A DNA stretch of 64,000 bases from contig JAVVEP010000007.1 of assembly GCA_032250735.1 (NCBI GenBank), positions 1-64,000 on the forward strand. Direction: 5' to 3'. Under the pieces are notes generated by a model. The model made no database searches. It saw nothing but the letters and a program-made list of their open reading frames with translations, and was not told the origin of the DNA. Origin of the DNA: Gammaproteobacteria bacterium. GTDB lineage: Bacteria > Pseudomonadota > Gammaproteobacteria > SZUA-152. Positions 44,211 to 64,000 of this stretch are shown piece after piece. The position numbers and the translations under genes are program-made. Every line of letters starts with the position of its first letter. Position 1 is the first letter of the stretch.

Positions 44211-45299
44211 ATGTCTTTACAAAAAACTATTCAAATTTTGGGCGGCCTGCTGCCGCTGTTGCTGCTGGGCTGTGCCTCCACCGTGGAGAAGTCGGCGGAC
44301 AAGCCGCTCTACTGGCCCAGTGCGCCGGTGGAGCCCCGTTATCAGTATGTCACCACGCTTCGCTCTGAGGAGAGTGTGCGCGCGGTGACTGCGGAAGACC
44401 GCTTCAAGAGGGCGATGACAGGTGAAAAGGAACAGCCGCGCGTACTGGGCAAACCGTTTGATGTGGCGGCGGGGCATGGCCTGGTGGTGGTGACGGATAC
44501 GGTGTTGCGCAAGGGCTTTATCTTTAATCTGCCGCGCCAGAAAATGTACCAGTTCGGGCACCTGGGTAAGCAGGGTGTGCTGGCCAAGCCGATGGGGGTG
44601 GCGGTTGGCCCCGACAGCCAGATCTATATCGCTGACGTGAGCGCCAGAACGGTGTTTGTGTATGACGCCTATGGCATGTTCAGGCTGGCGATGGGGGGTA
44701 TGGAGGAGTTCGATCGGCCGGTGGACGTGGCGGTCTCGCCCGATGGTCAGCGGATCTATGTGGTGGATGCGGGCGGTATCGACAGCCCTCGACACCGGGT
44801 GGTGGTCTTCGACGCGAACGGGGTAAAACAGTTCGCCTTCGGCGAGCGTGGCGAGGGCACGGGGCAGTTCAACCTGCCGACCCAGTTGGACGTGGCCCCC
44901 GATGGCACGGTCTATGTGCTGGATGCCGGTAATTTCCGCGTGCAGGCCTTTACCGCGACCGGCGGATTTTTGCGCACCTGGGGAAAGGTGGGCCGTGGTT
45001 TTGGGGATCTTGCGCGGCCGCGAGGGCTGGCGGTCGGCACCGATGGGAATGTCTACGTCAGCGATGCGGCGTTCAGGAATGTGCAGGTATTTACCCCGCA
45101 GGGCCAGTTGTTGCTGGCGATTGGTAGCGAGGAGATCGCCGACCGGCCGGGGCAGTACGCCATGCCGGCCGGCGTAGCGCTGGATGAGTTGGGGCATGTG
45201 TATATCGTGGATCAGGCCTTTGCCAAGGTGGATGTGTTGAAGCAATTGAGCGAGGCAGAGCGGGCGGAAGTTGTCGAGCAACGGGACCTGCTAAAATAA
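44211..45299 (+). CDS. NHL-repeat beta-propeller lipoprotein (1)
   Basis: A 362-aa lipoprotein: signal peptide MSLQKTIQILGGLLPLLLLG with Cys21, then WPSAPVEPRYQYVTTLRSEE (a motif shared with the lipoprotein at 55045), and about six NHL repeats (KPMGVAVGPDSQIYIADVS, RPVDVAVSPDGQRIYVVDAG, LPTQLDVAPDGTVYVLDAGN, RPRGLAVGTDGNVYVSDAAF, MPAGVALDELGHVYIVDQAF). The frame opens at 44049; ATG 44211 is preferred for its signal peptide. NHL propellers are protein- or ligand-binding scaffolds. It begins the multiheme cytochrome cluster. Confidence 0.9.
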   Translation: MSLQKTIQILGGLLPLLLLGCASTVEKSADKPLYWPSAPVEPRYQYVTTLRSEESVRAVTAEDRFKRAMTGEKEQPRVLGKPFDVAAGHGLVVVTDTVLRKGFIFNLPRQKMYQFGHLGKQGVLAKPMGVAVGPDSQIYIADVSARTVFVYDAYGMFRLAMGGMEEFDRPVDVAVSPDGQRIYVVDAGGIDSPRHRVVVFDANGVKQFAFGERGEGTGQFNLPTQLDVAPDGTVYVLDAGNFRVQAFTATGGFLRTWGKVGRGFGDLARPRGLAVGTDGNVYVSDAAFRNVQVFTPQGQLLLAIGSEEIADRPGQYAMPAGVALDELGHVYIVDQAFAKVDVLKQLSEAERAEVVEQRDLLK

Positions 45300-45871
45300 C
45301 GGTCGTGCGTGCCAAGACGTGCTTGCGGGAAAATTCGCTTATATTCTAAACAGAATATAAATCGGAATTGCAGTCGAAGTGAGAATATAAAGTCTTCGTT
45401 AGTCAAATAAAATTTGTGTGAACCCGATCACAGTTTTAGGGTTTATTTTTTATCGATACGCGAATGATAGGGTGACAAATTTTCTTGGGTCATATTGGTA
45501 ATTGATTGTTTTTTAAGGTTGTTATGGAAAATTTTTTTGACGATTCGAAGATTAAAGTCCGATTTGGTGATAATGTATCGAGAAGCCTGAAAAGTTGACA
45601 TTTCCCGGATGGGCATGCTAAAAAGTATGCACAAGTTAGGGAGAAGTTTTCAGGACGGGTTTGTAACCGTTAATGACAAAACAAGATGCGCCGATTAGTT
45701 ATTAACGAATGGGTTGCATCAGCGCGATGTCACTTGGAGCGGCGAAGGTTAGGAAGCGAGAATAGGAAGTAATAGATAGATCAATTAGTTTGAGCAGCAA
45801 GAAGACCAGGCAGTAAGCAGCAACGATTTAGAATCTATAAATTAAATGCACGAGGCCATAGGGGGTTTCAA
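45300..45871. other. Long leader region of the cytochrome cluster
   Basis: A 572-bp AT-rich region without a convincing gene. It contains a perfect CRP-type palindrome at 45417-45432 and several AT-rich stretches that could hold promoters. The weak minus-strand frames here lack ribosome-binding sites and family features. Confidence 0.5.
45417..45432 (+). promoter_or_regulatory. Perfect CRP-type operator
   Basis: TGTGAACCCGATCACA matches TGTGA-N6-TCACA in all ten fixed positions and extends as AAATT/AGTTTT. It lies 440 bp before the tetraheme cytochrome gene. A TATCGATAC sequence follows at 45451, near the position of a -10 box for class II activation. Confidence 0.65.
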
Positions 45872-46828
45872 ATGAATCATTTTGTGAAAGCAGCGGTAGC
45901 AACAGCAGTCGTCCTGGGTACATCCCTGGTCGCTGTTAGCGCATCGGCGGGTATTACCAATACCCGCCATAATCTGGGCGCAACGGGCACCGGACCAAAT
46001 CATACGGCTGATACGGGAGAAATTTGTATCTTCTGCCACACGCCACACGGTGGTGACACCGGTGCACCGGTGCCAATTTGGAATAAGAAATTGACTACGG
46101 CGACCTTCACTACCTACGATCAACTGGGCACCTCCACCCTGGATGCTGCGGTGGGTCCGGTGGGTTCGGTCTCTCTGGCCTGTCTGACCTGTCACGATGG
46201 TACCCAGGCGATCGATAACATCCTCAATGCCCCGGGTTCCGGTGGTTTTGATGCAACCGGCGGTGGTGCCAATGGTCTAGGCTGGACCTGGACCACAGAC
46301 GGTACCCTGGATATAAATGGTACATTCCAGGGCTCTGTGGATGGCGGTGGCGCCAATATCTGGGAGATCGGTACCGATCTGCGAAATGATCACCCGGTGA
46401 GCATGCAGTATGGTGGTGGTGGTTATTCTGTCAGCAATCTGAACGGTGGCGGCCTTGGTGCTACCGGGGCGACACGGGATGAAGACTTCTTCCCGGCCAC
46501 TCCGATTGGTACTGCTGGCCGCTGGTATGTCGATAATACTGTAGCAGGTACGACCGGTAGCTTTGATAAGTGGGATTTCAAGCTCTATACCCGCGACACC
46601 ACAGGCTTTGCGGCTAACGCGAATAATGGTGCGGCCTTTGCGGGCGAGAAAGAGCCCTTCGTAGAGTGTGGTTCCTGCCATGATCCTCACTTCGAGACCA
46701 CCACCTTCCTGCGTATGCCAGGTACGGTTGACCTGACTACGGCTCTTGGTGGCGGCACTACGTCGGTGGCGGCAGCAAGTCAGTCCAATACCGGTAGTCG
46801 TGTTTGTTTGACCTGCCACAACAAGTAA
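45872..46828 (+). CDS. Exported tetraheme c-type cytochrome
   Basis: A 318-aa secreted cytochrome c. The signal peptide ends about residue 26 (VAVSASAG). Four CxxCH sites: Cys52-His56 (CIFCH), Cys104-His108 (CLTCH), Cys266-His270 (CGSCH), Cys312-His316 (CLTCH). Distal His candidates at 33 (TRHNL), 59 (TPHGG), 174 (NDHPVS) and 273 (DPHF) fit bis-His ligation of four low-spin hemes. The CIFCHTPHG and CLTCHDG motifs mark the doubled-CxxCH family. A Gly-rich region (130-200) separates the second and third heme. Its layout, with four hemes and no membrane anchor, is shared with polymerising tetraheme cytochromes; polymerisation is only inferred. The N-terminal module recurs in the 11-heme proteins at 56271 and 61494. 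Confidence 0.92.
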   Translation: MNHFVKAAVATAVVLGTSLVAVSASAGITNTRHNLGATGTGPNHTADTGEICIFCHTPHGGDTGAPVPIWNKKLTTATFTTYDQLGTSTLDAAVGPVGSVSLACLTCHDGTQAIDNILNAPGSGGFDATGGGANGLGWTWTTDGTLDINGTFQGSVDGGGANIWEIGTDLRNDHPVSMQYGGGGYSVSNLNGGGLGATGATRDEDFFPATPIGTAGRWYVDNTVAGTTGSFDKWDFKLYTRDTTGFAANANNGAAFAGEKEPFVECGSCHDPHFETTTFLRMPGTVDLTTALGGGTTSVAAASQSNTGSRVCLTCHNK

Positions 46829-46859
46829 GCTGAGTCAGCTTTTGGTGGGTAGGTAGAGG

Positions 46860-47162: not shown

Positions 47163-48191
47163 ATGCGTATTTTGCAGGTGGTGTTGTTTTTATGTGTGTT
47201 GCAGGGCGTGAGCGGCGTAATAGTGGCTGCACCGGCCGCTGATGCGGCGCCCCCGACGGCGGCAGCCGCTGAGGCCAATAAGGCGACCGCGACGGCTGGG
47301 TCGAAGGCGCTGGACTATATCGCCATCGTCAATGGCGAGCCTGTCTCCATGGGTGAGTATGTTTCGGCATTGCGCCGAGGCATGCAGCAGCGTTTCTATC
47401 ATGGCAAGGTGCCGGAAGAGGAGATCAAACAATACCGTAAAGAGGTCGCCGAGGGTCTGGTGGAAAAGGCCTTGCTGGTGCAGGAGGCAAAGCGGCGCAA
47501 GCTGCAGCCGGATGCAGAGGCGGTGGAGCAGAGTGTAAAGGCCTTTGATGCCAAGTATCAGGACAATCCGGACTGGCAGAAGGCCCGTGAGACGGTGCTG
47601 CCGCAGGTGCGCGAGAAGCTCAATAACGAAAGCCTGGCAAAGGTTCTGGAAGATCGGGTACGCGATGTACCGGCGCCCACGGCGGATGAGCTGAAGCGCT
47701 TTTATGAGGACAGCAAGGATCTTTTTACTACGCCTGAGCGGGTCAGGGTGTCGCTGATATTGTTGCGTGTGGATCCCGCATCGACCCCGGAGGTATGGAA
47801 GCAGGCCAGCGATGAGGCGGCCTCTATCGTTGAGCGCATCGGTGCGGGCGGCGATTTCGCAGAGCTGGCGCGCATTCACTCCAGTGATAAATCGGCCCAA
47901 AATGGCGGCGATATGGGTTTTGTGCACACCGGCATGCTCGGTGAAAACGCCCAAAAGGTGCTGGACATCATGGAAGTTGGTGAGGTGTCCTCGCCGGTGG
48001 TGTTATTGGAAGGGGTGTCGATTTTTCGCCTGGACGAGCGCGAGAAGCCCAGTCTGAACAGTCTGGATGCCGTAAAGGAACGGGCGGAACAGTTGTACCT
48101 GCGCGATAAGGGTGAGGCGGCGTGGAAAAAGCTTCTGGCAGATTTACGTAGCGCCGCCACCATTGAGATGAATGATGCACCCTGGCGTTAA
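47163..48191 (+). CDS. Periplasmic parvulin-type peptidyl-prolyl isomerase
   Basis: A 342-aa exported PPIase: signal peptide (MRILQVVLFLCVLQGVSGVI), an Ala-rich linker (25-48), a SurA/PpiC-type chaperone region (about 50-180, VNGEPVSMGEYVSALRRG) and one parvulin domain (about 193-294: VRVSLILLRVD, FAELARIHSSDKSAQNGGDMGFV, VLLEGVSIFRLDERE). It would help fold exported proteins in the periplasm. Being inside a cytochrome and beta-barrel cluster, it is probably dedicated to these clients, as PPIases are in other extracellular electron-transfer clusters. Confidence 0.92.
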   Translation: MRILQVVLFLCVLQGVSGVIVAAPAADAAPPTAAAAEANKATATAGSKALDYIAIVNGEPVSMGEYVSALRRGMQQRFYHGKVPEEEIKQYRKEVAEGLVEKALLVQEAKRRKLQPDAEAVEQSVKAFDAKYQDNPDWQKARETVLPQVREKLNNESLAKVLEDRVRDVPAPTADELKRFYEDSKDLFTTPERVRVSLILLRVDPASTPEVWKQASDEAASIVERIGAGGDFAELARIHSSDKSAQNGGDMGFVHTGMLGENAQKVLDIMEVGEVSSPVVLLEGVSIFRLDEREKPSLNSLDAVKERAEQLYLRDKGEAAWKKLLADLRSAATIEMNDAPWR

Positions 48192-48528: not shown

Positions 48529-50283
48529 ATGTTTTCTAGCGGCTTATATCTGCGGCACCGGTTGCTATTGGTGGCTGGCGTCTTGTGTCTGCTGAGTGCC
48601 GATGCCTTTGCGGCCTTTGGTGGGCTGGTGCCATTGAGCTGGTCGGGGCAGCTGGCCTACAATTATGGCTATGTGAATAGCGCGGGAAACGAGTCGGAGA
48701 CAACCAGCCTGATGTTGGGTGTGGATGCGGCCGGCTATATCTGGAAACCCTGGTTTGCCACCACGTCGATGGCGCTGAACCTGGGGCTGTCGAATACGGA
48801 AACCTCGGCGAGCAGCTCGGATTCTGTGGTGGGGACCGGTAGTTTTTCCCTGGGCGTGTTTCCGGGCAGTCGCTTCCCCTTTTCGCTGACCTATGCGCAG
48901 ACCGACAGCCGTTCCCAGTCAGTCCAGTCTTTTTCCGAGTCATCAGGTGATGTCAGTTTTCATGTGACACGTTTGTCGCTACGGCAGAGTTATCGCCCGC
49001 GCGCCTATCGGCAGCTGTATAACGCCTGGTATTACCTGACCGAGTTTGAGGGGGACAATTTTGGCTCCGAAAGCACGACCTATGGGCTGGAGTATTCACT
49101 GCGGTTGACCCATCAGTCGTTTGTCGTGAGCGGGGCACACTCATCAACCAGGACCCAGGGTGGCACCGTAGAACCGTCGGTGGATTCGCTGTCGCTGAAT
49201 CATGTCTATACACCGAGCAATGAGCTGGGCGTGAACAGCCTGGTTTCCTATGTCGAGGTTGACCCGGGCGGTACAGGCACGATTTCGCAGGATTCCCAGG
49301 CATTTAGCGCCTTTTACTGGCGTCCGGAGCATCGTGCGGTGAATGTTTCGGGGGGTGTCCGGCTGTCGGAGAGTGTGTCGGAGGGCACCGACACAACGAC
49401 CACCCGCAGTCTGAATACCAACCTGAGTGTGGGCTATCGCATAACCCGGGCGTTAAATTTTAGCGCGGGTGCCTCGGTAGGTACCTTCGACAGCGAAAAT
49501 GCACAGACCTTGTCGACCTCGCAGACGGCGGATATGTCGTATACCGGCTCGCGCTATCAATTCGCAGGCTATTCCTATTCCTGGCAGTGGGGTGGGGGAG
49601 TGTCCAATGCCACCACCCGCACCGACACATCGCTGACGTCGATATCCACTGACAGACAGTCCGTGAGGACGGGGATTGGTCATAATCTTTCCAGGTCGTG
49701 GCAGGGCGGGCCCAGCTCCTCGGTAACGGCGGGCGTGTCACAGGCGGCCTCCGGCAGCAAAAATTCCGAGTCTGATGAGCTTTCGAGCACGCTGAATCAC
49801 GGGGTCAATATGAGCTGGAACCGCCGTGGTCAACGGGGTTCGGTGTATTTCAGCACAAGGGCGGGTGATTCGAGGAGTTATGGGGAGAGAGATGCGGTCT
49901 TTAACGATTTCGGCGCCAGCGTGAACGCGGATTACGAGATCAGCCGATTAAGCAGTGTATCGGGAAATATGGATTTCTCGGCCAGCCAGAGTGAGACGGA
50001 AAATGAGGCGGGTGGGAAAGAGGTGAGTGGAAACCGGACCCTTGGCGGTGGCGCGGCGTACCGGCATCAGCGCCCCTTTGGTATTTACAATCTGCAATTT
50101 TCCTCCAATCTGACCGGCAGCAAGCAGATTGATAGTCCGCAACCGAGCTCCACGTTGCGCTGGGAGTCGCTGTTTCGCTATAGTTTGGGCCTGCTAACGA
50201 CATCGCTGACGTTTCGGGTCTCTGAGACGCCTGGCGGCACTGTGACCAAGTCAATGAGTTTTCAGGCTACCCGAAGTTTTTAA
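48529..50283 (+). CDS. Large outer-membrane beta-barrel protein
   Basis: A 584-aa predicted outer-membrane protein. The signal peptide is MFSSGLYLRHRLLLVAGVLC ending at DAFA; the mature part is almost entirely alternating beta strands rich in Ser/Thr/Tyr/Gly (WSGQLAYNYGYVNSAGNESE, SFVVSGAHSSTRTQGGTV, NTNLSVGYRITRALNFSAGA), and the last strand ends in Phe (SFQATRSF). The number of strands is probably above 20. Upstream in-frame starts at 48451 and 48478 exist (the latter has GGTGAGGTG before it), so the start is not certain. In the cluster it is the natural candidate for the pore through which heme chains cross the outer membrane. It contains no heme motif. Confidence 0.83.
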   Translation: MFSSGLYLRHRLLLVAGVLCLLSADAFAAFGGLVPLSWSGQLAYNYGYVNSAGNESETTSLMLGVDAAGYIWKPWFATTSMALNLGLSNTETSASSSDSVVGTGSFSLGVFPGSRFPFSLTYAQTDSRSQSVQSFSESSGDVSFHVTRLSLRQSYRPRAYRQLYNAWYYLTEFEGDNFGSESTTYGLEYSLRLTHQSFVVSGAHSSTRTQGGTVEPSVDSLSLNHVYTPSNELGVNSLVSYVEVDPGGTGTISQDSQAFSAFYWRPEHRAVNVSGGVRLSESVSEGTDTTTTRSLNTNLSVGYRITRALNFSAGASVGTFDSENAQTLSTSQTADMSYTGSRYQFAGYSYSWQWGGGVSNATTRTDTSLTSISTDRQSVRTGIGHNLSRSWQGGPSSSVTAGVSQAASGSKNSESDELSSTLNHGVNMSWNRRGQRGSVYFSTRAGDSRSYGERDAVFNDFGASVNADYEISRLSSVSGNMDFSASQSETENEAGGKEVSGNRTLGGGAAYRHQRPFGIYNLQFSSNLTGSKQIDSPQPSSTLRWESLFRYSLGLLTTSLTFRVSETPGGTVTKSMSFQATRSF

Positions 50284-50374: not shown

Positions 50375-50782
50375 ATGTTCAAGTCAGCGACAATTGGCTT
50401 GTTGAGTATGTTGGCTGTACTGGTGTTGCCGCAGGCAGCTCAGGCTGAATATGCTGACGTAGTAATCAACAATTATGCCGATGCGGCGGGTATGCGGCCT
50501 GCAGTATTTCCGCACTGGTATCACCGGATTCGTTTCCGTTGCAAGGTCTGTCATGCAGATCTGGGTTTTGCATTCAAGGCCGGCGGCAACAAAATCACCA
50601 TGGCGAAGATCATCGACGGTAAATTCTGTGGCGCATGCCACAACGGTGAGATTTCATGGTCGGTTGAGAACTGCGGCATGTGTCACTCCGGCGTGCCGGG
50701 AACACCGACCCAGATCCACGGTAGTACCGTACAGCGCCTGGTTGCACCGACCTATAAATCGCTGGGTCAGCCCGCTAAATAA
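50375..50782 (+). CDS. Exported triheme c7-type cytochrome
   Basis: A 135-aa small cytochrome: signal peptide ending PQAAQA, then three CxxCH sites: CKVCH (56-60), CGACH (85-89), CGMCH (100-104). The FPHWYHRIRFRCKVCHADLG segment with paired upstream His matches the c7-type triheme domain (first heme preceded by F-x-H-x3-H). Such proteins are periplasmic electron shuttles. GGAGG precedes ATG 50375 (frame opens at 50357). It follows the beta-barrel gene and precedes a second triheme gene by 22 bp. Confidence 0.92.
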   Translation: MFKSATIGLLSMLAVLVLPQAAQAEYADVVINNYADAAGMRPAVFPHWYHRIRFRCKVCHADLGFAFKAGGNKITMAKIIDGKFCGACHNGEISWSVENCGMCHSGVPGTPTQIHGSTVQRLVAPTYKSLGQPAK

Positions 50783-50804
50783 CTAACAAGGAGGGGGGAA
50801 TAAA

Positions 50805-51461
50805 ATGAAAATTACACGCTTCTTGTTGGGCGCGATGACAATTTGCATGTTCATTGGGATGAATGTGCAGGCGGCTGAAGCACCAATGAAGGATGTAAAG
50901 TCTGCCAAAGGTAATGTCAGCGGGGCGAATACGTTTAACCGCCTGCTGAAGAAAGACGAGCACCGCAACGCAGCGCCACCCGAGGATGGTATTCATGACG
51001 CGGCTAATGATGGCACCCATGTTCTGCAGCCACCGTTGATTGCCTATGACGGACTGCCAACCACTGAATTTGGGAACTATGTCGATTGGGTGAAGGCTCT
51101 TGATGAAGGCCTGCTGAAACCGCGTTATGACCGTTTTGATCCCACTGTTGAGCCTCTGGTGATGGATCTGGACATCGTGCGCGAAGTCAAGGCATCCATG
51201 CCGGATGTGGTGTTTCCGCACAAGCCGCATACAAAATGGCTACATTGCTCGAACTGTCATCCTAAAATCTTTATCCCTCAGCGCAACGCCAACGTGATTA
51301 ACATGTCGGCGATTTTGTTGGGTGAGAAGTGTGGTGTCTGTCATGGCAAGGTGTCGTTCCCAATTACCACCAAGTCCTGCACAAAATGCCACTCGAAGCC
51401 TAAACCGGCTGACTGGAAGCCACCGCAGAGTGAAGCCAGCCTGACAAACCCATGGCGCTAG
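50805..51461 (+). CDS. Exported triheme c7-type cytochrome
   Basis: A 218-aa cytochrome: signal peptide about residues 1-24 (MNVQAAEA), a region PPEDGIHDAANDGTHVLQPP and NYVDWVKALDEGLLKPRYD of unknown role, then VVFPHKPHTKWLHCSNCHP with CSNCH, GEKCGVCHG and CTKCH heme sites. It is the paralogue of the protein at 53425; the two share the EDGIHD and FPH.PHTKWL.C.NCHP motifs. The N-terminal 110 residues are extra relative to simple c7 proteins. An AGGAGGGGGGAA site lies just before the ATG. Confidence 0.92.
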   Translation: MKITRFLLGAMTICMFIGMNVQAAEAPMKDVKSAKGNVSGANTFNRLLKKDEHRNAAPPEDGIHDAANDGTHVLQPPLIAYDGLPTTEFGNYVDWVKALDEGLLKPRYDRFDPTVEPLVMDLDIVREVKASMPDVVFPHKPHTKWLHCSNCHPKIFIPQRNANVINMSAILLGEKCGVCHGKVSFPITTKSCTKCHSKPKPADWKPPQSEASLTNPWR

Positions 51462-51512: not shown

Positions 51513-51543
51513 ACGGCGCAGATTCACGTCTGCGCCGTTTTTT
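51513..51543 (+). terminator. Intrinsic terminator
   Basis: ACGGCGCAGA-TTCACG-TCTGCGCCGT followed by T residues, ending the barrel/triheme transcript. Confidence 0.93.
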
Positions 51544-51617: not shown

Positions 51618-53291
51618 ATGTCAATTCTCTGCTCTAAAATTTCGCGGTTTTATTGCCTGGTGGCTTTGTTGAGTCTGGTTGCCTGTGGCGGCCAAACGGT
51701 TAAACCAGAGGAGACGAATGAGGGGCAGCTGGACACGACAAAAAATACTCCAACAGAGCCGGTAAAAGCGGATGCGGTGAAAGCTGAGCCTGAAGCCGTG
51801 ACGCCGCCGGTGGTCGAAGTGATGCCGCAGCAGATGAGCGAGTCGTCGATTGCGATGGAGGCGATTCCCGCAAAAGATGAACCTCCTGTTGCTGTGGTTG
51901 CAGATGAAACCATAACTGCAGGAGAGACGCCGGCTGTCACCGAGTCCGTACCAGCGGTAGACGTCGCCGATGAAAAGGTGGTTGAAGGCGCTCGGGGCGA
52001 CCCATCCCCTGAAACAAAAGCGGCGCCAGCGACGGCTGAGCGTGCGGGTGCCTCATCCGTGCCGGTATCAAGCGGCCCAAATAATTTTGTGATCACCGTC
52101 GGTGCAAAGCAGGCAGGACATCCGGCCTATGGCAAGGGGCATGCGATGGGATTCCTTGTCGATGGTGTTTCCGGCAAGGAAATCGTGCTTGAGCGTGGCC
52201 AGACCTATGTGTTCGACGTTGATACGGATGCAAAGCATGACGTGTATCTGTCGACCAAGGCCATCGGCTGGGGTAGCGCACCGTATGCGGAGGGCGTGGA
52301 GGGCGACTATACGTATAAGGGCAAGATGGTTTTCAAGCCCGGCAAGGACAGCCCCGATGAGCTCTTTTATGCCTGTCGCAACCACCCCTACATGGGGGCG
52401 ATGATCCATATTGTGGATCCCGGCCAGACCGCTAATGTCGGGCAGCGCCCAGCTACAGATGCCGATGCGAGTGCAGTAAAAGCGGCGCCGCAATCCACGG
52501 TGACAGAGGCGCAGGTCAAGCAAAAGCTGATGTTTGCGGAGATGATGGCCGGCGCCCAGGGCACCAAGCGTGTCATGGCGAGCCAAAATGAAGAGGCCAA
52601 ACAGTTTGTGGTTGACGCAAAACGGCTGGTGACTGAAGGCCATAATAAATCGCAGGCAGGTGCACAGGCCGAGGCACTGGAGATGGCGAATCAGGCATTG
52701 AAGATGTTGAGCGATGCGACGCGCCTGGTGCCGGGTGACGAAGAGCTGGCGCAGTTGGCCGAGAGCTATAAGCACACCCTGGACGAGATCCATGGCTATC
52801 AGCAGTCGTATCAGAATAATGTGAAGAGCCTTGAGAAGAAGGGTGATCTGGCACCGGGCATTAAATATGATGAAAAGGCGTTTGCTGAGACCCTGGCCAG
52901 CGCAGAGGCGTATGCCCAGCAGAAGAATTATGTGCATGCCAATGAATTATTGGCGCAGGCCCAGGCGACAATTACCGGTGCCTTGCATGGCATGCTGGAT
53001 TCCAAAACCCTCGTCTATGACCTCAAGTTTGAAACACCCGCCGATGAATACGAGTATGAAGTAAAGCGTTTCAACAGTTATGAAGAGTTGATTCCGATCG
53101 CCATTGAGGCAAAAAAACCGGCCGCCGGTGCGGTAAAGCTGATGGAAAGCTTTCTGGAAAAGGCGCGCAAACGGCGTGATGAGGCCAGGGAGAAGGCAGA
53201 TGCCGGCGATTATCCGTCCGCTATCGGGATGATGATGCAGGCAACCACAACCGTGCGCCGGGCTTTGCGCATGGTGGGTGTTGCGCAATAA
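51618..53291 (+). CDS. Cupredoxin-domain lipoprotein with helical C-terminus
   Basis: A 557-aa lipoprotein (lipobox LSLVAC, Cys23), an acidic/Pro/Val-rich tether (24-150), and a cupredoxin-like beta domain (about 152-268) with candidate copper ligands His207 (DAKHDVYL), Cys253, His256 and Met259 (FYACRNHPYMGAMIHIV), the C-x2-H-x2-M order of type-1 copper. Residues 290-557 are long helices with tetratricopeptide-like character (EALEMANQALKMLSDATRLV, NYVHANELLAQAQATI). It is placed between cytochrome genes and may pass electrons or bind copper at the cell envelope. I do not recognise the whole domain arrangement. Confidence 0.82.
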   Translation: MSILCSKISRFYCLVALLSLVACGGQTVKPEETNEGQLDTTKNTPTEPVKADAVKAEPEAVTPPVVEVMPQQMSESSIAMEAIPAKDEPPVAVVADETITAGETPAVTESVPAVDVADEKVVEGARGDPSPETKAAPATAERAGASSVPVSSGPNNFVITVGAKQAGHPAYGKGHAMGFLVDGVSGKEIVLERGQTYVFDVDTDAKHDVYLSTKAIGWGSAPYAEGVEGDYTYKGKMVFKPGKDSPDELFYACRNHPYMGAMIHIVDPGQTANVGQRPATDADASAVKAAPQSTVTEAQVKQKLMFAEMMAGAQGTKRVMASQNEEAKQFVVDAKRLVTEGHNKSQAGAQAEALEMANQALKMLSDATRLVPGDEELAQLAESYKHTLDEIHGYQQSYQNNVKSLEKKGDLAPGIKYDEKAFAETLASAEAYAQQKNYVHANELLAQAQATITGALHGMLDSKTLVYDLKFETPADEYEYEVKRFNSYEELIPIAIEAKKPAAGAVKLMESFLEKARKRRDEAREKADAGDYPSAIGMMMQATTTVRRALRMVGVAQ

Positions 53292-53985: not shown

Positions 53986-55036
53986 TCTGCCTGGATTTTA
54001 TTCTGTTCTTCTGTTCATGCTGGCGGTTCCGCTGGCGGCCTGTAGTGTTGCCGAGCTGGAGAAGTTTGCCCTGGAGGGTGAGGCGCTTCAGGCGGCAGAG
54101 CCAAAACGTGATACCGGCTTTTCGCAAAAGGTCGGGGCAAAACTCCTCTCTGCAGAATCCATCATTAAAGGCGGTCGCCGCTCCTATAAGGGGTTTTCCG
54201 GGCAGCTGAACCGGCTGGTGATTGGTGAGGCGGATGAGATCATCTTGCAGCAACCGGTTGCCGTGGGTGGCGTGGGCGGTCTGCTGTATATCGTCGATGC
54301 CGGCCCGAAGCTGGTTTACAAATACGATCTGCTGACCAACGAGATAGAGCCGGTGGGTGAGATTGCCACGCATTTCGCGGGTAATCCCGGCAATATCTAT
54401 GTGGCAAAGGACCGTTCCTTTTATATCGTCGATTCGATCGGCCGAAAGGTGCTGCGGTTTAGTGAGCAGGGCCAGTTGCTGATGACCTTTCAGGATTTGG
54501 CGAATCTCTCACGGCCGATGGATGTTGTGGTCAACGAACAGAGCGGTGATGTCTTCGTGGCCGATGGATCGTTCAGCCATATCGTGGTGTTCAATAGTCT
54601 GGGTAAGGCGACGCGGGCGATTGGCCGGCGTGGTACCGGTCCGGGCCGTTTTCGCGCGATTACCTATATGACCAGCAGCACCGATGGTTTGTATGTGCTG
54701 GACCGGCTGGAATTGCCGGTGCAGGTAATCGACTGGGAGGGCCAGTACCAGTATTCGTTTGGCGAATCCGAATTATCATTCCCCAGTGCTGTGGCGGTCG
54801 ATAGCGATCAACGTGTCTATGTCAGTGACCGTTCCAGCAATGCCATTCAGGTGTATCAAAATGCGCAGTTAATGCTGACCTACGGGGGTGGTGGTTCGGC
54901 ACCTGGGCGTTTTCGTCTGGTAACGAGTATGTGGATAAACAATAATCTGCTTTACGTGGCTGACACCCTCAACCAGCGTGTGCAGGTGCTACGTATCAAT
55001 CCGTCGGCGGCGGTGTTTGAGACGCCAGAGGGTTAG
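53963..55036 (+). CDS. NHL-repeat beta-propeller lipoprotein (2)
   Basis: A 357-aa lipoprotein (LLFMLAVPLAACS, lipidated Cys at about 27) with at least five NHL/propeller repeats (LQQPVAVGGVGGLLYIVDAG, NPGNIYVAKDRSFYIVDSIG, RPMDVVVNEQSGDVFVADGS, FPSAVAVDSDQRVYVSDRSS, NNNLLYVADTLNQRVQVLRI). The start is GTG 53963 or ATG 53969, both within the end of the triheme gene. Likely a scaffold on the inner or outer face of the outer membrane; the role is inferred from context. Confidence 0.9.
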   Translation: MKMLGFGSLPGFYSVLLFMLAVPLAACSVAELEKFALEGEALQAAEPKRDTGFSQKVGAKLLSAESIIKGGRRSYKGFSGQLNRLVIGEADEIILQQPVAVGGVGGLLYIVDAGPKLVYKYDLLTNEIEPVGEIATHFAGNPGNIYVAKDRSFYIVDSIGRKVLRFSEQGQLLMTFQDLANLSRPMDVVVNEQSGDVFVADGSFSHIVVFNSLGKATRAIGRRGTGPGRFRAITYMTSSTDGLYVLDRLELPVQVIDWEGQYQYSFGESELSFPSAVAVDSDQRVYVSDRSSNAIQVYQNAQLMLTYGGGGSAPGRFRLVTSMWINNNLLYVADTLNQRVQVLRINPSAAVFETPEG

Positions 55037-55044: not shown

Positions 55045-56214
55045 ATGATTGTCACCGCGATGAAGCCTGTAACGTTGAAAAGATGCTCTTTATTAGTGCT
55101 GCTGATTCTGGCCGCGCTGGTAATGGTCGGTTGTGGCGAAACCCGCTACCTGTTGCGCTACGATGCGCCGGAAAAGGAAAGGGTATGGCCGCCCTTGCCG
55201 GACAAACCCCGCTTCAGTTATGTGGGGCAATTGACGGGTGAGGACAACCTCAAGGCGATAGATGATGGGGGTGCCGGCGCCGCCATTGGCAAGTTTTTCC
55301 GGGCCCTGGTCGGCCTTGGTTATGAGCCGGATCGTGCGCGAAACCTGTTGCGCCCGCAGAGCGGTGCGGTCGATGCCCTGGGGCGGGTGTTGGTGACGGA
55401 CGCGGGACGTCAGGCGGTGTTTGTCTTCGATGAAAAACAGGGAAAGATGGCGATCTGGAAAGAGGCGACGGAGAGCCTGAATTTTGTGTCGCCCGTGGGT
55501 GTCGGTGTCGCCAGTAATGGGGATGTGCTGGTGGCGGATGCGGAGCTGCGGCGGATTATCCGTCTGGATGGGGAGGGCAATCCCAAGGCGGATTTTGGCT
55601 TTGGCGATCTGGAGCGCCCCACCGGTCTGGCGATTAATCTGGCCAGCGGTCGCATCTATGTGTCGGATACGGCAGAGCACAATATCAAGGTGTTCAGCGA
55701 TGACGGCACCCTGGTGCAGGTGATAGGCCAGGTGGGCACCGAACCCGGTGAATTTAATGCGCCGACGCACATCAGCTTCGTCGGTGGCAAACTCTACGTT
55801 ACCGATACCTTTAATGCCCGGATACAAGTGATTGACCCGGACGGGAATTTTGTCCGTTCGGCGGGCTCCAGGGGGCTCTATATGGGCAACCTGGTACGGC
55901 CCAAAGGGGTGACTGCCGATAGCGAAGGCAATATTTATATCGTTGAGTCTTTTCACGATTTCTTGTTAGTATATGACCAAGATACGCGGTTTTTACTGCC
56001 CATTGGTGGCACCGGCGATGGCATAGGCCAGTTCTATTTGCCCGCCGGCGTGTGGTCGGATGCACGCAATCGGATCTATGTTGCCGACATGTATAACGGT
56101 CGCGTGGTTATCTTTCAGTATCTTCAGGAAAACCTGCCTGGTGACGCCAATGTCATCAAGGAAGTGAAACTGGGTGGCCAGAGCGAGCCGGGCCCTCAGA
56201 TCGACGTGCAGTGA
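55045..56214 (+). CDS. NHL-repeat beta-propeller lipoprotein (3)
   Basis: A 389-aa lipoprotein (lipobox LVMVGC) whose post-signal motif WPPLPDKPRFSYVGQLTGED matches the protein at 44211. Six NHL repeats follow (RPTGLAINLASGRIYVSDTA, APTHISFVGGKLYVTDTFNA, RPKGVTADSEGNIYIVESFH, LPAGVWSDARNRIYVADMYN). It starts 8 bp after the preceding NHL gene, so the two are one unit. It ends 56 bp before the first 11-heme cytochrome gene, suggesting that the products act together. Confidence 0.91.
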   Translation: MIVTAMKPVTLKRCSLLVLLILAALVMVGCGETRYLLRYDAPEKERVWPPLPDKPRFSYVGQLTGEDNLKAIDDGGAGAAIGKFFRALVGLGYEPDRARNLLRPQSGAVDALGRVLVTDAGRQAVFVFDEKQGKMAIWKEATESLNFVSPVGVGVASNGDVLVADAELRRIIRLDGEGNPKADFGFGDLERPTGLAINLASGRIYVSDTAEHNIKVFSDDGTLVQVIGQVGTEPGEFNAPTHISFVGGKLYVTDTFNARIQVIDPDGNFVRSAGSRGLYMGNLVRPKGVTADSEGNIYIVESFHDFLLVYDQDTRFLLPIGGTGDGIGQFYLPAGVWSDARNRIYVADMYNGRVVIFQYLQENLPGDANVIKEVKLGGQSEPGPQIDVQ

Positions 56215-56270
56215 GCCAGTAAAGATATAAAACGTCGAATGGCCAGTAGTTATCAGTAGTGGGAGTGGCT

Positions 56271-58928
56271 ATGCGAATCAGGAGTTTTGTCGTCACAGGC
56301 AGTGTGGTGTTCGTCGCAGCTGTGCTGTGGAGTTCATCGGCGTCGGCGGCGCGCGTCTCGGATATTCGTAATACCAAACACAACTTTTCCTCCACCGTCA
56401 CGCCGAATATCCTCGGTGGCGGCGATCAGCGGGTGGTGCGCTCACAGAATGAGTCTGAAATCTGTGTTTTCTGCCACACCCCCCACGGCGCCAATCTCGG
56501 CGAGGGCCCGTTATGGAATCGCGAGATCCCTGCGAGTTCCACCTATACGGTCTATGCATCGGGATCGATCGATTCCACCATCCAACAGCCCAATGGTGTC
56601 TCCAAACTGTGTCTTTCCTGTCACGACGGCAGTATCGCCATCGGCAGTGTCCGCAATCGTGCCGGCAGTGGAGGCTTTGGGGCATCTGCCATCACGATGC
56701 AGGGCACCGGCAGTGGTGGCGTCATGGCGCCGGGTGAGGGCTCGACCACGGGTTACACACGTTTTCTTGGCAAGGATCTGACCAATGATCATCCGATCTC
56801 GCTGACCTACAATTCGGCCCTGGTCTCGGCCGATAGAGAGATGCGCAGCCCGACCGAGAATCCGATCCGGGTGCGGGGGTTAACGCCGCGGCCCACCAAA
56901 CAGGACATCCATCTACAGCCGGCGGTGGCGAACAATCCCACCTCGAACACGGGACAGGTACAGTGTGTCAGCTGTCATGACCCGCATATTCGTGATACGA
57001 CCAATGAAAACATCAAATTCCTGCGCCTGAATCGCCTGCAGAAAACACGGCCGGATGGTTCCAATACCTTCCTGCCCGCAACGGATATTATCTGTCTTGC
57101 CTGTCACACCAAGGCGGGCTGGGAGACCTCGGCCCATGCGCAGCCGGCAGTGGCCAACGAGCAATACACCAATGCCGCCGCGGATGTGCGTGAGTTCCCG
57201 CGCGGCACCCAGGTCTGGGAGACCGCCTGCCTGGCCTGTCATGACACCCATACGGTACAGGGTTCGCGGCGTCTGCTGCGCGCGGGCACGGATGCGGGCA
57301 CATTTGCCTCGTCGTCCGGTTACAACATCAAGAATGGCAACGGCAGCCCCGCCATCGAAGAGACCTGTTTTGCCTGCCATTCACCCAATCGCGGCACGCT
57401 GAACGGCCAGGGTGGGACTAGCTTCGAAGTGCCGGATGTCTGGACCGACTTCCAGATGGCGCGCCACATGCCCATCACCACCGCCGAACAGCGAGCCAGC
57501 TTCGAGGTGCACAACATCGGCAACGCGGATGGTCTGACGGGCACCAGTATGGATGGCCTGGGTGCAGACTTCATCGAAGGCCCGAATAACATGGGGCGGG
57601 ATAATGTCAATGACCGCCACGCCGAGTGCACCGATTGCCATAACCCGCACCGGGTGGTGAAGCGTCGATCCTTCACCCAGACCAATGCCAGCGGCGGAAT
57701 GGATGTCGAAGGTACGCATGATCACACTCAGCCGCACACCAATATCGCCTCCGGGGTGTTGCGCGGCATCTGGGGTGTGGAGCCGGTATATGCCAGCGAG
57801 AGTTTCCACGTCGACCCATCGGGCTTCACCATCAAGCGCGGTGAACCCACCAGCACCAGCACCACGGTCGGTAGCGCCTGGGTGACCCGCGAATACCAGG
57901 TGTGCCTCAAGTGTCATTCCAATTTCGCCTTCCCCAATGGCTACGACGGCCCGCCAGCGCTGGGTGGCAGCTCTACCACGCCGTCGGGTACCAACGGCAT
58001 GACGCGCTACACCAACATCGCGCGGGAATACAATTCGCCGTCTGCGCATGCGGGCGAACCCCGCAGTGTAGGGACTGCTGGCGGCGCCAGCTCCAATGCC
58101 AACAACCACCGTTCCTGGCATCCGGTGATGCAGCCCACCCAGCGCACTCCCGCCTCACGCGGTATGGCCAGCGCCAATATCTGGCTGGCGCCGTTCCGCG
58201 CCGTCGGTACCCAGACGATGTATTGCAGTGACTGCCATGGCAGCAACACTGCCAACGGTACGGCGGTGCCCAGTGGCTCACAACCCAATGGCCCGGTGTG
58301 GGGACCGCATGGCTCAAACAATAACTTCCTCCTCAAGGGGCCGTGGAGCGGTGATCGCACTACCGGTACCGGTGTTGGTCAAACCAGTCACCTGTGTTTC
58401 AAGTGCCACGACTTCGCCCAGTATGCCGACCCCAATAACACGGCGCCTCTGGACAGCGGTTTTCAGCTGGGTGCCGATGGTGGCGGTGGTGGCGGTATGG
58501 GAGGTATGGGCGGTGGCGACATGTGCATGGGCGGTGGCGGCATGTGCGGCGGCATGGGCGGCATGGATGGCGGCGGTGGGGTGATGAACAACCTGCACAT
58601 TTTCCACGCCAATCAGGTGACCAATTTCCGCTGCAACCTGTGCCACGTGGCGGTGCCCCATGGCTGGAAGAACAAGAACTTCCTGGTCAACCTCAATGAT
58701 GTGGGCCCCGAGGGTGGGCTCAGTATTGGCACCCAACGGCGTAACGGCACTACCGCCGGTTATGTGAATCAACCTTACTACAACCGCGCCGCGCTAAAAG
58801 TGGCCTCTTTTGCGGCCAGCGGAAACTGGCAGCCCGCGAACTGTGGATCGGTCGGGGCGCCGGGCAACGGGCAAACGGGTGTGGCCTGGATGGCCGGCAG
58901 TACTGAGGCCTGCATGAATGTGCCTTAG
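56271..58928 (+). CDS. Exported 11-heme c-type cytochrome
   Basis: An 885-aa secreted cytochrome with 11 CxxCH motifs: CVFCH, CLSCH, CVSCH, CLACH, CLACH, CFACH, CTDCH, CLKCH, CSDCH, CFKCH and CNLCH. The signal peptide is MRIRSFVVTGSVVFVAAVLW to SASA. The N-terminal module (RNTKHNFSS, CVFCHTPHGAN, NDHPISL, CHDPH) is homologous to the tetraheme protein at 45872. Between the tenth and eleventh hemes is a Gly/Met/Cys-rich insert (DGGGGGGMGGMGGGDMCMGG and following) with extra Cys and Met that could bind metal. The C-terminus has two non-heme Cys (NCGS, EACMN). GGAG precedes ATG 56271. Probably extracellular, given its size, repeat content and paralogue at 61494. Confidence 0.93.
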   Translation: MRIRSFVVTGSVVFVAAVLWSSSASAARVSDIRNTKHNFSSTVTPNILGGGDQRVVRSQNESEICVFCHTPHGANLGEGPLWNREIPASSTYTVYASGSIDSTIQQPNGVSKLCLSCHDGSIAIGSVRNRAGSGGFGASAITMQGTGSGGVMAPGEGSTTGYTRFLGKDLTNDHPISLTYNSALVSADREMRSPTENPIRVRGLTPRPTKQDIHLQPAVANNPTSNTGQVQCVSCHDPHIRDTTNENIKFLRLNRLQKTRPDGSNTFLPATDIICLACHTKAGWETSAHAQPAVANEQYTNAAADVREFPRGTQVWETACLACHDTHTVQGSRRLLRAGTDAGTFASSSGYNIKNGNGSPAIEETCFACHSPNRGTLNGQGGTSFEVPDVWTDFQMARHMPITTAEQRASFEVHNIGNADGLTGTSMDGLGADFIEGPNNMGRDNVNDRHAECTDCHNPHRVVKRRSFTQTNASGGMDVEGTHDHTQPHTNIASGVLRGIWGVEPVYASESFHVDPSGFTIKRGEPTSTSTTVGSAWVTREYQVCLKCHSNFAFPNGYDGPPALGGSSTTPSGTNGMTRYTNIAREYNSPSAHAGEPRSVGTAGGASSNANNHRSWHPVMQPTQRTPASRGMASANIWLAPFRAVGTQTMYCSDCHGSNTANGTAVPSGSQPNGPVWGPHGSNNNFLLKGPWSGDRTTGTGVGQTSHLCFKCHDFAQYADPNNTAPLDSGFQLGADGGGGGGMGGMGGGDMCMGGGGMCGGMGGMDGGGGVMNNLHIFHANQVTNFRCNLCHVAVPHGWKNKNFLVNLNDVGPEGGLSIGTQRRNGTTAGYVNQPYYNRAALKVASFAASGNWQPANCGSVGAPGNGQTGVAWMAGSTEACMNVP

Positions 58929-58961: not shown

Positions 58962-58988
58962 TGTGGCCGACGGAGTCCGTTGGCCACA
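58962..58988 (+). terminator. Hairpin after the 11-heme gene
   Basis: TGTGGCCGACGG-AGT-CCGTTGGCCACA, a 12-bp stem, with only a weak T-run after it. A possible terminator or mRNA-stabilising structure. Confidence 0.5.
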
Positions 58989-61493: not shown

Positions 61494-64000
61494 ATGCAGC
61501 AGTACCGGTCAGCCGTATTTGCCAATCTGGTGTTTATTGTTTTCGTGGTCGGATTGGGGAGTGTGTACGCTGCCAGCCTGCCTTCGGGTCGCATCTCCGA
61601 CGTCCGCAATACCAAACACAACCTGGGCGCCCTCTCCAGCAGCGGGCCCGCCCGTACCGTGCAGAGCGGTAGTGACGAAGACGAGATCTGCGTGTTTTGC
61701 CACACCCCGCACGGCGCCAACCTGGCTGCCCCGGGGCCGTTATGGAATCGCTCCCTCTCTACGGCAACCTACAACACCTATAACAGTGGCTCGCTGGATG
61801 CGACCCTGGAGGGTGTTGCCCTCGATCAACCCAACGGTATTTCCAAACTGTGTCTGTCCTGCCATGACGGCACCATCGCCATCGGTGCCGTAAACGTGCT
61901 GAATGGCAGTCTGGCGGCAGGTCCCATAACCATGAGTGGTGTGCAGGGAGATGGCACCATGCCGGCCGGTGACTCGGGTGTGAACAGCGGTTTTACCCGG
62001 CGTCTGGGCACCGATCTCAGCAACGACCATCCTATCTCGTTCACCTATGACACGGCCCTGGCACTCAAGGATGGTGAGCTGCGCGATCCGGCCAGCGAAC
62101 CCGAGATCGGCAATCGTGCCCCGGGCGTACCGCGGCACATCCCGCTGGATAATGGCCAGGTGCAGTGTAATAGCTGCCACGACCCGCATATCCGTGACGA
62201 GGCCGACCCGACCAAAAACATCAAATTCCTGCGTCTGAATCGCTTTCAGAAGGTCTCGCCCATCAGCACGACCTTTAACGAGGCCAACGACATCATCTGC
62301 ATGGCCTGTCACGACAAGGACGGCTGGGTGGGCTCGGCCCATGCGACGGACACCGTCGCCAACGAAACCTATACCGATGCCGCGGCGGATCTGCGTGAGT
62401 TCCCCCGCGGCACCGCGGTGTGGGAGAGTGCCTGCCTGACCTGTCATGACACCCACACCGTGCAGGGTTCACGGCGGCTGTTGCGCGAGGGTGTGGATGG
62501 CCCCACCGGCGTCAGCGGCGAAAAGCTGGGTGGCAGCGCGGCGATTGAGGAGACCTGTTTTGCCTGTCATTCGAGTGATGGCGGCACCCTCACCTCGCAG
62601 GGGCTGAACACCGAAGTGCCGGATATCAAGACCGACTTTAACCTTACCGGCACCTATGCCACCCACATGCCGTTGACCAATGACGAGCAGGTGGCCGGTG
62701 TGGAAAAGCATGACATCGGTACCGTGCACATGGACTCTCAGGAGACCGGACAGCGCGGCAAGGATTTCATCGAGTCCCAGGCCTCGCTGGGCAAGGTCAG
62801 TATGGGCGGCTCACTCAACAACCGGCATGCCGAATGCACCGACTGCCACAACCCGCATCGGGTCACCCGCCGGCGGCTGTTCAACGGCGATCACCTGTCC
62901 GGTGGGCTGGACTCGGCGGGCACCCATGCCCACGACATCAGCGACCTTAACGCTGAGACTCCGTATTCCACCCACAACAACATCGCCTCCGGCGTGCTGC
63001 GCGGTACCTTTGGCGTGGAGCCGGTGTACAGCTCCAACAATTTTAATATTGAGCCGAGCAGCTTCACCATCAAGCGCGGCGATCCCGGCACCCCCGGTTT
63101 TGGCGGTGGCACCACCAATGTCACCGAGCCCTATGTGACGCGGGAGTACCAGATCTGCCTCAAGTGTCACTCCAACTATGCCTATGACACCCCGCCCGCC
63201 CTGGGCTTGAGTTCGGCCACCACCCCGTCGGGCATCAACAATATGACCCAGTACACCAACCAGGCGCGGGAATATAACTCACCCTCCAGCCACAAGGGGC
63301 GGGTGAGCCAGGGTGCCGATGGCGGCGCGGATTCCAGCTGGAACACCAATAACCACCGCAGCTGGCATCCGGTGCGGGACAACACCGGGCGGACGGCGGC
63401 CCTGCGTAATGCCGATGCCAACAACTGGCTGACGCCCTTTAACGCGGCGGTGGGCACCCAGACCATGTACTGCTCCGATTGCCACGGCTCCAACACCCCG
63501 ACGGGCACCGCCGATCCCGATGGCCCGGGTTATGAAAACGGTAATGTCTGGGGTCCGCACGGCTCCACCAACCCCTTCCTGCTGAAGGGGGACTGGAGCG
63601 GCAATGTGCCGGGCTCCAACCGCAATGACTACACCAATCGCCCCGGTACCGGGGAAAACACCGATTCGCGAGATCACCTGTGCTTCAAGTGCCACGACTA
63701 TGACGAATACGCCTCCACCGCCGGCTCCGGGGCCAGCGGTTTCGGCGGTGACGGGATGTGCGGCATGGGCTGCATGGGTGGCATGGGCGGGTCAACCAAC
63801 CTGCACCGCTTTCATATCAGCCGGATTACCAATTTCCGCTGTAACCTCTGCCATGTGGCGGTGCCCCATGGCTGGAAGAACAAGGCCTTCCTGGTGAACC
63901 TGAACGATGTGGGTCCCGAGGGTGGTTTTGGCTCCACGGGTAATCAGTTGCGTAATGGCACGACCAGCGGCTATGTCAACGGGCCGTACTACAATCGCGC
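61494..64000 (+). CDS. Exported 11-heme c-type cytochrome, truncated by window end
   Basis: The frame starts at ATG 61494 (GAGG upstream; signal peptide MQQYRSAVFANLVFIVFVVG to VYAA) and stays open to the end of the window (835 codons). It has 11 CxxCH motifs in the same order as the protein at 56271: CVFCH, CLSCH, CNSCH, CMACH, CLTCH, CFACH, CTDCH, CLKCH, CSDCH, CFKCH, CNLCH. It has a shorter Gly/Met/Cys insert (GDGMCGMGCMGGMGG) at the equivalent place. By comparison about 50 C-terminal residues are missing. Tandem paralogue separated by the YncE-like gene; probably an extracellular partner or alternative of the first protein. Confidence 0.93.
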   Translation, partial: MQQYRSAVFANLVFIVFVVGLGSVYAASLPSGRISDVRNTKHNLGALSSSGPARTVQSGSDEDEICVFCHTPHGANLAAPGPLWNRSLSTATYNTYNSGSLDATLEGVALDQPNGISKLCLSCHDGTIAIGAVNVLNGSLAAGPITMSGVQGDGTMPAGDSGVNSGFTRRLGTDLSNDHPISFTYDTALALKDGELRDPASEPEIGNRAPGVPRHIPLDNGQVQCNSCHDPHIRDEADPTKNIKFLRLNRFQKVSPISTTFNEANDIICMACHDKDGWVGSAHATDTVANETYTDAAADLREFPRGTAVWESACLTCHDTHTVQGSRRLLREGVDGPTGVSGEKLGGSAAIEETCFACHSSDGGTLTSQGLNTEVPDIKTDFNLTGTYATHMPLTNDEQVAGVEKHDIGTVHMDSQETGQRGKDFIESQASLGKVSMGGSLNNRHAECTDCHNPHRVTRRRLFNGDHLSGGLDSAGTHAHDISDLNAETPYSTHNNIASGVLRGTFGVEPVYSSNNFNIEPSSFTIKRGDPGTPGFGGGTTNVTEPYVTREYQICLKCHSNYAYDTPPALGLSSATTPSGINNMTQYTNQAREYNSPSSHKGRVSQGADGGADSSWNTNNHRSWHPVRDNTGRTAALRNADANNWLTPFNAAVGTQTMYCSDCHGSNTPTGTADPDGPGYENGNVWGPHGSTNPFLLKGDWSGNVPGSNRNDYTNRPGTGENTDSRDHLCFKCHDYDEYASTAGSGASGFGGDGMCGMGCMGGMGGSTNLHRFHISRITNFRCNLCHVAVPHGWKNKAFLVNLNDVGPEGGFGSTGNQLRNGTTSGYVNGPYYNR

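Follow-up and report, generated by a model that had tools for sequence, protein, structure and literature searches.

A Uet electron-transfer cluster with OmcE-like cytochromes in a gammaproteobacterium of the SZUA-152 lineage

Introduction

The undecaheme electron transfer (Uet) pathway, encoded by uetABCDEFGHIJ of the Tenderiales, was introduced by Eddie et al. (2022), as cited in PMC10734462 and PMC12575090. Its parts are a tetraheme cytochrome (A), a prolyl isomerase (B), a barrel (C), three triheme cytochromes (D, E and G), UetF, two NHL proteins (H and I) and an undecaheme cytochrome (J). Uet, a proposed route by which cells exchange electrons with electrodes or iron minerals, has been reported for the Tenderiales, Ca. 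Tenderia electrophaga among them (PMC10734462, PMC5371394, PMC12575090, PMC13386937), and also for genomes of iron oxidisers (Gallionella, Leptothrix group; PMC10734462, PMC13386937). Its role in electron uptake in Tenderia was inferred from expression (PMC5371394). A second line of work concerns cytochrome filaments, such as the OmcE nanowire of Geobacter sulfurreducens, in which the adjacent subunit supplies a histidine ligand to a heme, and the hexaheme OmcS, whose sequence bears no apparent resemblance to OmcE (PMC9473688). The assembly, anchoring and outer-membrane wiring of such filaments have been described as unresolved (PMC12307469).

Results

Gene organisation and identity of the cluster

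Direct translation of the window, i.e. the whole stretch of 64,000 nucleotides analysed (contig JAVVEP010000007.1, from position 1), gave a cluster of 13 intact genes on the plus strand (contig 44211-64139; Table 1), the last of which, uetJ2, extends 139 bases beyond the window end. The first-pass annotation had counted twelve co-directional genes; the shared direction was confirmed, while the number was corrected to the 13 that its own itemised list contains. Its tally of 35 CxxCH motifs (4+3+3+3+11+11) was reproduced, every one lying inside the window. Gene 14, encoding a second YncE-type propeller, follows just beyond the window (64247-66496). A hairpin scan returned 29 terminator-like hairpins, compared to 17.1 +/- 4.7 in shuffled sequence, whereas the number of sites in a sigma-70 scan was not above that in shuffles. 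An Rfam search found nothing except one tRNA, upstream.

Table 1 Features of the Uet cluster (start codons of UetC, UetD and UetG slightly revised to the probable positions listed).
Feature	Position	Strand	Characteristics
NHL1, NHL-repeat lipoprotein-like, 362 aa	44211..45299	+	LLGC near residue 21; NHL E 1.9e-25
UetA, exported tetraheme cytochrome, OmcE homologue	45872..46828	+	4 CxxCH; 7tfs OmcE match
UetB, SurA/parvulin-type periplasmic prolyl isomerase	47163..48191	+	Rotamase E 5.5e-15; SurA_N
UetC, predicted outer-membrane barrel with a C-terminal Phe	48529..50283	+	ORF may start 48451
UetD, triheme c7-type cytochrome	50375..50782	+	3 CxxCH; TIGR04257 E 1.6e-17
UetE, N-terminally extended triheme c7-type cytochrome	50805..51461	+	3 CxxCH; TIGR04257 E 7.5e-17
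Terminator-like hairpin, 11 pairs and T tail	51513..51538	+	between uetE and uetF
UetF, lipoprotein with cupredoxin-like domain	51618..53291	+	lipobox LVAC
UetG, triheme c7-type cytochrome	53425..53985	+	3 CxxCH; TIGR04257 E 1.6e-16
UetH, NHL-repeat lipoprotein	53963..55036	+	lipobox LAAC; overlaps uetG 3' end
UetI, NHL-repeat lipoprotein	55045..56214	+	lipobox MVGC
UetJ, undecaheme cytochrome	56259..58928	+	11 CxxCH, counted in 56271-58928; OmcE-like head and seven hemes
Terminator-like hairpin	58962..58988	+	between uetJ and first YncE-type gene
YncE-type beta-propeller, 724 aa	59068..61242	+	6-phosphogluconolactonase-like and YVTN repeats
UetJ2, second undecaheme cytochrome	61494..64000, continuing to 64139	+	11 CxxCH

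As the A-J products occur in collinear order in the window, the cluster, matched through its published parts and their order, is the already known Uet pathway. The proposal that gene content and order were new was rejected, given that all named parts stand, gene for gene, as in the published Uet (PMC10734462). The locus tags of T. electrophaga are likewise collinear, with the trihemes Tel_16515, Tel_16520 and Tel_16530, the TPR protein Tel_16525 and the undecaheme Tel_16545 corresponding to UetD, UetE, UetG, UetF and UetJ, respectively. The A-J genes are about 33-97% identical in genomes of the same order (6 genera). UetC was found in 40 of 369 genomes of the class (30 of 271 genera), so that Uet, carried by about one in ten sampled class genomes, is an ordinary cluster for the group.

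The Uet order around UetC was observed in 18 loci of the order, some of which end early at contig ends, in 20/20 loci of the class and in 10/10 of the phylum sample, and this recurrence in many class-sample genera and beyond indicates that the cluster is not due to chance. UetC lay inside a Uet cluster in every locus examined, which refutes a barrel unrelated to the cytochromes. The earlier interpretation therefore stands as to an extracellular electron-transfer cluster in which barrel and cytochromes are linked, and falls as to newness. NHL1, directly upstream of uetA and outside the published A-J naming, is the first gene in almost every locus of the order that extends to it, and in several loci of the class and of the phylum as well. 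A YncE-type propeller gene comes after uetJ in loci of the order, and the tree places UetJ2 in a separate clade of UetJ.

OmcE homology of UetA and the UetJ heads

Comparison of UetA with the PDB gave matches to OmcE (7tfs, E 7.2e-19) and 9yuq_N (E 1e-15), the latter from an entry with 16 chains of an OmcE-like protein. UetJ also matched OmcE (E 8.9e-21, residues 27-243), with an OmcE-like tetraheme domain at residues about 40-290 followed by seven hemes; in both UetJ and UetJ2 it is the first four hemes, in the N-terminal third, that are homologous to OmcE. This homology of UetA and of both UetJ heads, evident from PDB matches and alignments, is an addition to the first-pass annotation, which had missed it.

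The four heme motifs of UetA and its distal histidines, His33, His59, His174 and His273, are invariant among 34 orthologues, and OmcE keeps them wherever its aligned fragment covers them. In an alignment of UetA and UetJ with 67 rows, the heme motifs and four distal histidines were again invariant; the exceptions were one UetJ row, at the fourth motif, and the positions beyond the OmcE fragment. One of the conserved distal histidines of UetA might act as the trans ligand. UetA is a likely filament subunit. AlphaFold modelling of UetC and UetA gave pLDDT values of 33 and 29, respectively, too low for use, from shallow alignments built on window, SZUA-152 and Magnetococcales sequences only.

Translation confirmed the two 11-heme cytochromes annotated earlier, and all 28 UetJ orthologues counted carry 11 CxxCH, as do both window copies. 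UetJ retains the four OmcE ligand histidines as invariant residues and has 17 conserved non-CxxCH histidines. The OmcA/MtrC family was not among the profile matches listed for UetJ.

The barrel, triheme cytochromes and accessory proteins

UetC had no match in Pfam or NCBIfam, nor in the PDB, where a profile search built on 25 UetC sequences returned no solved-barrel homologue. Its orthologues display amphipathic strands and a near-invariant terminal Phe which, together with the published UetC annotation, are consistent with the predicted barrel ending in Phe that had been annotated. No MtrB/PioB match was obtained for UetC in Pfam, nor was PF11854 detected in the genome, and an MtrCAB-like reading was rejected on these grounds.

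The c7 assignment of the three small cytochromes holds, as c7/TIGR04257 domains were found in all of them, and UetE also matches 3ov0, a multidomain c7-type cytochrome. UetD shows the highest conservation of all the cluster proteins, with a median identity of 92% in the order and 78% in the class, compared to 44% in the order for UetC.

The assignments of the accessory proteins were borne out as well: NHL repeats were found by profile in all three NHL proteins, a PPIC rotamase domain in UetB, and a lipobox in UetF. The cupredoxin-like domain of UetF (at about residues 160-275) is supported by invariant ligands and a weak match to the pseudoazurin profile (E 0.09). H207, C253, H256 and M259, invariant in 20 aligned orthologues, provide the type 1 copper ligand set His...Cys-x2-His-x2-Met of a predicted site, and the Cys-x-Asn-His-x2-Met motif is present in 29 of the 34 UetF found. 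The C-terminal half of UetF is probably helical and TPR-like; the top PDB matches of the UetF profile, designed or repeat helical proteins, cover this half, and the Tenderia counterpart is annotated TPR (PMC5371394). The first YncE-type protein is probably a double propeller.

Discussion

Proposed pathway and alternatives

In view of the OmcE homology, a filament with export and anchoring parts becomes the likelier mechanism, in place of a simple porin-cytochrome wire. In the model that we consider quite probable, Uet joins triheme shuttles, UetC in the outer membrane, an OmcE-like UetA filament and UetJ. UetD, UetE and UetG would act as periplasmic shuttles from the inner-membrane chain to the outer membrane, where the UetC barrel may export cytochrome and/or carry a heme path. 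Outside the cell, UetA may well polymerise into an OmcE-like filament, into which UetJ, with its OmcE-like head and seven hemes, could conceivably dock, or whose base or tip it could cap, a doubtful step at present. UetB may fold the cytochromes, built mostly of loops, while the NHL and YncE propellers and UetF, a TPR-like/copper lipoprotein, might serve as scaffold or accessory redox parts; the isomerase and propellers would aid assembly. Cytochrome maturation genes are located downstream on the same contig. Counting against the model, UetC matched no solved barrel, and OmcE-like heads occur in UetA and UetJ alike, so that either could be the polymerising subunit.

We consider it probable that net electron flow is inward, from a mineral, an electrode or another solid donor, in this RuBisCO-encoding genome, since the two matches for the RuBisCO large subunit favour electron uptake. 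Multiheme chains are reversible, and it is possible, if rather unlikely, that the pathway chiefly exports electrons, respiring Fe(III)/Mn(IV) or electrodes, as its OmcE and multidomain c7 relatives come from Geobacter; against this stand the RuBisCO matches and the published carriers, a cathode electroautotroph and iron oxidisers (PMC10734462, PMC5371394, PMC13386937). In favour of the proposed pathway, the triheme transcripts of Tenderia were among the highest on a cathode; against it, the undecaheme and trihemes displayed no significant regulation by electrode potential (PMC5371394).

Published accounts call Uet a porin-MHC complex (PMC10734462), and a classical porin-cytochrome conduit without filaments would place the trihemes inside UetC and UetJ on the surface like MtrC, leaving UetA as a soluble or surface carrier that kept the OmcE fold but forms no polymer. 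In principle one subunit could supply all four ligands, and UetJ residues 225-380 resemble the DmsE-family decaheme, at 47 bits and below the cut-off of 192. We regard this conduit as improbable, given that UetA agrees with OmcE in the four conserved distal histidines, one ligand in OmcE being given by a neighbouring subunit (PMC9473688), and that MtrB/PioB was detected neither in UetC nor in the genome. Least likely of all is that UetC, UetB and the propellers serve assembly or secretion only, as proposed for the Geobacter osc operon in OmcS folding, secretion and morphology (as cited in PMC13194489 and PMC12977616), and that electrons cross the outer membrane elsewhere, e.g. through giant 21-36-heme cytochromes, for although 17-, 21-, 30-, 35- and 36-heme proteins resembling PCC3 in size (PMC10734462) are encoded elsewhere in the genome, three dedicated, very highly conserved trihemes within the cluster fit an electrical role.

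Returning to the filament model, we tentatively propose UetA as the filament subunit and UetJ as a terminal connector, whose head, with the same set of ligand histidines, might lock into the filament end, its seven further hemes being directed toward the barrel or an outside donor. If true, Uet would contain a defined part that couples a cytochrome nanowire to a membrane conduit, and this in a pathway regarded as inward-running. Filament homology is no proof of the physiological route, because an OmcS-deficient Geobacter strain is reported to reduce Fe(III) oxide normally (PMC11077965). Within a single conserved gene order, Uet brings together a homologue of OmcE, a larger cytochrome that carries this head as well, a barrel, a folding factor and the triheme shuttles, and thereby makes the link between filament assembly, anchoring and outer-membrane wiring testable.

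Comparison with known systems

That the cluster is not OmbB-OmaB-OmcB, ext or MtrCAB, as annotated earlier, agrees with its different parts and the lack of an MtrB/PioB match. As in MtrCAB/MtoAB and OmbB-OmaB-OmcB, an outer-membrane barrel and multiheme cytochromes are encoded together; unlike MtrCAB/MtoAB, the Uet cluster has no decaheme MtrA orthologue, and tetraheme filament-type and triheme cytochromes occur instead. A Cyc2-like pattern gave no match; this test was weak, as it relied on a single assumed motif. The osc (omcS companion) operon of Geobacter (Shen et al. 2025, as cited in PMC13194489 and PMC12977616) resembles Uet in combining a nanowire cytochrome with accessory genes, but the present cluster has no hexaheme gene, with 11-heme and OmcE-like proteins instead. 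Excerpts of PMC10553843 and PMC12246660 describe large cytochromes with a barrel in the OetABI-type conduit, and with a PPIase and beta-propeller in the SEEP-SRB1 operon, both as in Uet; these systems differ in their 26/16- or 12-heme cytochromes and their sulfate-reducing hosts, and no triheme trio is described in those excerpts.

With OmcE (PDB 7TFS), UetA and the UetJ head have in common the heme motifs as well as four distal histidine ligands, which sit in the NTKH, CHTPH, NDHP and CHxxH motifs. UetA is longer (318 aa, compared to 232 aa in the 7tfs chain), and UetJ, unlike OmcE, bears seven additional hemes. Compared to the published A-J set, the window adds the upstream NHL lipoprotein and the second undecaheme cytochrome, UetJ2, and the locus two YncE-type propellers.

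Gene content and identity of the cluster

Direct translation of the 20-kb stretch gave thirteen co-directional intact ORFs. First comes an NHL lipoprotein (NHL1), then a tetraheme cytochrome, a prolyl isomerase and a candidate barrel; two of the three trihemes follow, separated from the third by a lipoprotein that has a copper-type domain. Behind the third triheme lie two more NHL lipoproteins, an undecaheme, a YncE-type propeller and, last, another undecaheme (UetJ2), whose end lies 139 bases beyond the window. The cytochromes carry 4, 3, 3, 3, 11 and 11 CxxCH motifs in gene order, and the recount bears out the 35 hemes tallied in the first-pass annotation. Its proposal that this extracellular electron-transfer cluster is new did not hold, as content and order match those of the published Uet pathway, which comprises an undecaheme (UetJ), a tetraheme placed outside the cell (UetA), three trihemes of the periplasm (UetD, E and G), an isomerase (UetB), NHL proteins (UetH and I) and a barrel (UetC) (PMC10734462). 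Uet was described from cathode-oxidising Tenderiales, which are reported to share a conserved uetABCDEFGHIJ cluster (PMC12575090); bacteria of the Leptothrix group reportedly carry UetJ as well (PMC13386937). Among the genes of Ca. T. electrophaga, Tel_16515, 16520 and 16530 encode trihemes, 16525 encodes a TPR protein and 16545 the undecaheme (PMC5371394), an exact fit to D, E, F, G, (H, I), J of the window. Because both the published parts and this tag order fit, the cluster is Uet. We infer that the host order is Tenderiales.

Coordinates of the Uet cluster and associated features (C7, the window's contig; C4 and C14, other contigs of the same genome)
Feature	Position	Remark
Short ORF resembling four-helix-bundle (S23/Avd-type) proteins by eye, then a tRNA gene	window 42043-42509 (ORF)	upstream of the cluster, with ribosomal rplM-rpsI on one side and a porin on the other
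NHL1	window 44211-45299	first of the thirteen ORFs
uetABCDEFGHIJ	window 45872-58928	
Gly-Met-Cys-rich tract of UetJ	window 58440-58600	between hemes 10 and 11
UetJ2	window, from 61494	
Second YncE-type propeller	C7:64247-66496	after UetJ2
ResB/CcsA-like genes, then apparent Ccm set	C7:67987-78754	just downstream of Uet
Two OmcE-like five-CxxCH cytochromes flanking an NHL1 paralogue	C7:83479-86646 (-)	17 kb past the cluster
UetD, UetE and UetF (C-terminal part) paralogues	C14:64177-64996 (-)	
UetG paralogue	C4:55459-55641 (+)	

Distribution and variation of Uet

UetC was present in 20 of 24 genomes (six genera) of the host's order, 40 of 369 of its class and 23 of 398 of a phylum-wide draw. The same gene order surrounded it throughout the 18 order, 20 class and 10 phylum loci inspected, allowing for contig ends and excepting one genome (G227) without recognisable UetB; the barrel is therefore not an unrelated neighbour of the cytochromes, the outcome that the first-pass annotation had named as refuting its reading. 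Family and structure searches returned no match for UetC, a barrel candidate by its sequence pattern, near-invariant terminal Phe and published name.

Neighbourhood comparison revealed an alternative layout (loci L094-L103 and L004), seen in genomes beyond the class and in a few within it: in place of UetF there are mostly two short proteins that lack the copper motif, the trihemes number four, and UetH is mostly absent. Judged from this copper-less UetF, the copper domain is a lineage-specific part, dispensable to the system. In the 20 UetF orthologues aligned, His207, Cys253, His256 and Met259 are invariant, and the second half is TPR by Tenderia annotation (PMC5371394).

UetD, UetE and UetG all hit TIGR04257, a c7 domain of the triheme 'nanowire' type, and UetE also matches the multidomain c7-type cytochrome 3ov0. 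The conservation gradient is steep, with median identities in the order of 92% (UetD), 84% (UetE and UetG), about 58-68% (UetA and both UetJ) and 44% (UetC); conduit-linked periplasmic cytochromes of Geobacter are likewise reported to change slower than surface ones (PMC12977616).

OmcE-like cytochromes and a possible filament

Searches against solved structures matched UetA (E 7.2e-19) and UetJ residues 27-243 (E 8.9e-21) to OmcE, the Geobacter nanowire cytochrome (7tfs), and both to chain N of 9yuq (E 1e-15), a 16-chain putative multiheme cytochrome. An alignment of 67 rows (window UetA with 34 orthologues, 30 UetJ heads, OmcE and 9yuq_N) showed CxxCH motifs 1-3 and four more histidines (UetA 33, 59, 174 and 273) to be invariant, the fourth CxxCH occurring in every row covering that region bar one UetJ row. 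By these shared residues and structure matches, UetJ is an OmcE-like tetraheme head with seven further hemes. In OmcE, a histidine from the adjacent subunit ligates one heme (PMC9473688). From sequence, we infer that UetA may polymerise, and UetJ could join its filament. No mention of this likeness was found in published Uet accounts, the founding 2022 description not being covered, and priority is not claimed. The remaining interest of the cluster lies in this specific, testable reading as a filament system.

The five-heme pair and its NHL1 paralogue are possibly a second filament system. In another genome, G003, a 5-heme gene adjoins an NHL1-like gene near Uet.

The Gly-Met-Cys-rich tract (e.g. 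GGDMCMGGGGMCGGMGGM) recurs at the matching place in UetJ2. In alignment it is found in UetJ of the host order and near relatives and is absent from most others; its composition looks metal-binding. Duplicates are placed differently in different genera in the UetJ/UetJ2 tree, which suggests that the tandem UetJ-YncE pair arose more than once or was converted.

Direction of electron flow and other cytochrome genes

Two RuBisCO large-subunit matches occur in the genome, no MtrB/PioB was found there, nothing in it matched a single Cyc2-type pattern (a weak test), and Uet has been published from a cathode autotroph and from iron oxidisers (PMC10734462, PMC5371394, PMC13386937). On these grounds, inward electron flow is predicted as the more likely direction in this genome.

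The apparent Ccm set downstream (CcmA, B, C, E, F, G, H and I), like the ResB/CcsA-like genes, was recognised by eye, and the region reads as two adjoining cytochrome c maturation systems. Contigs C10, C14 and C35 of the same genome encode giant multiheme cytochromes with 21, 35, 11, 30, 36 and 17 CxxCH motifs, a size range comparable to that of PCC3, a complex predicted in iron oxidisers (PMC10734462).
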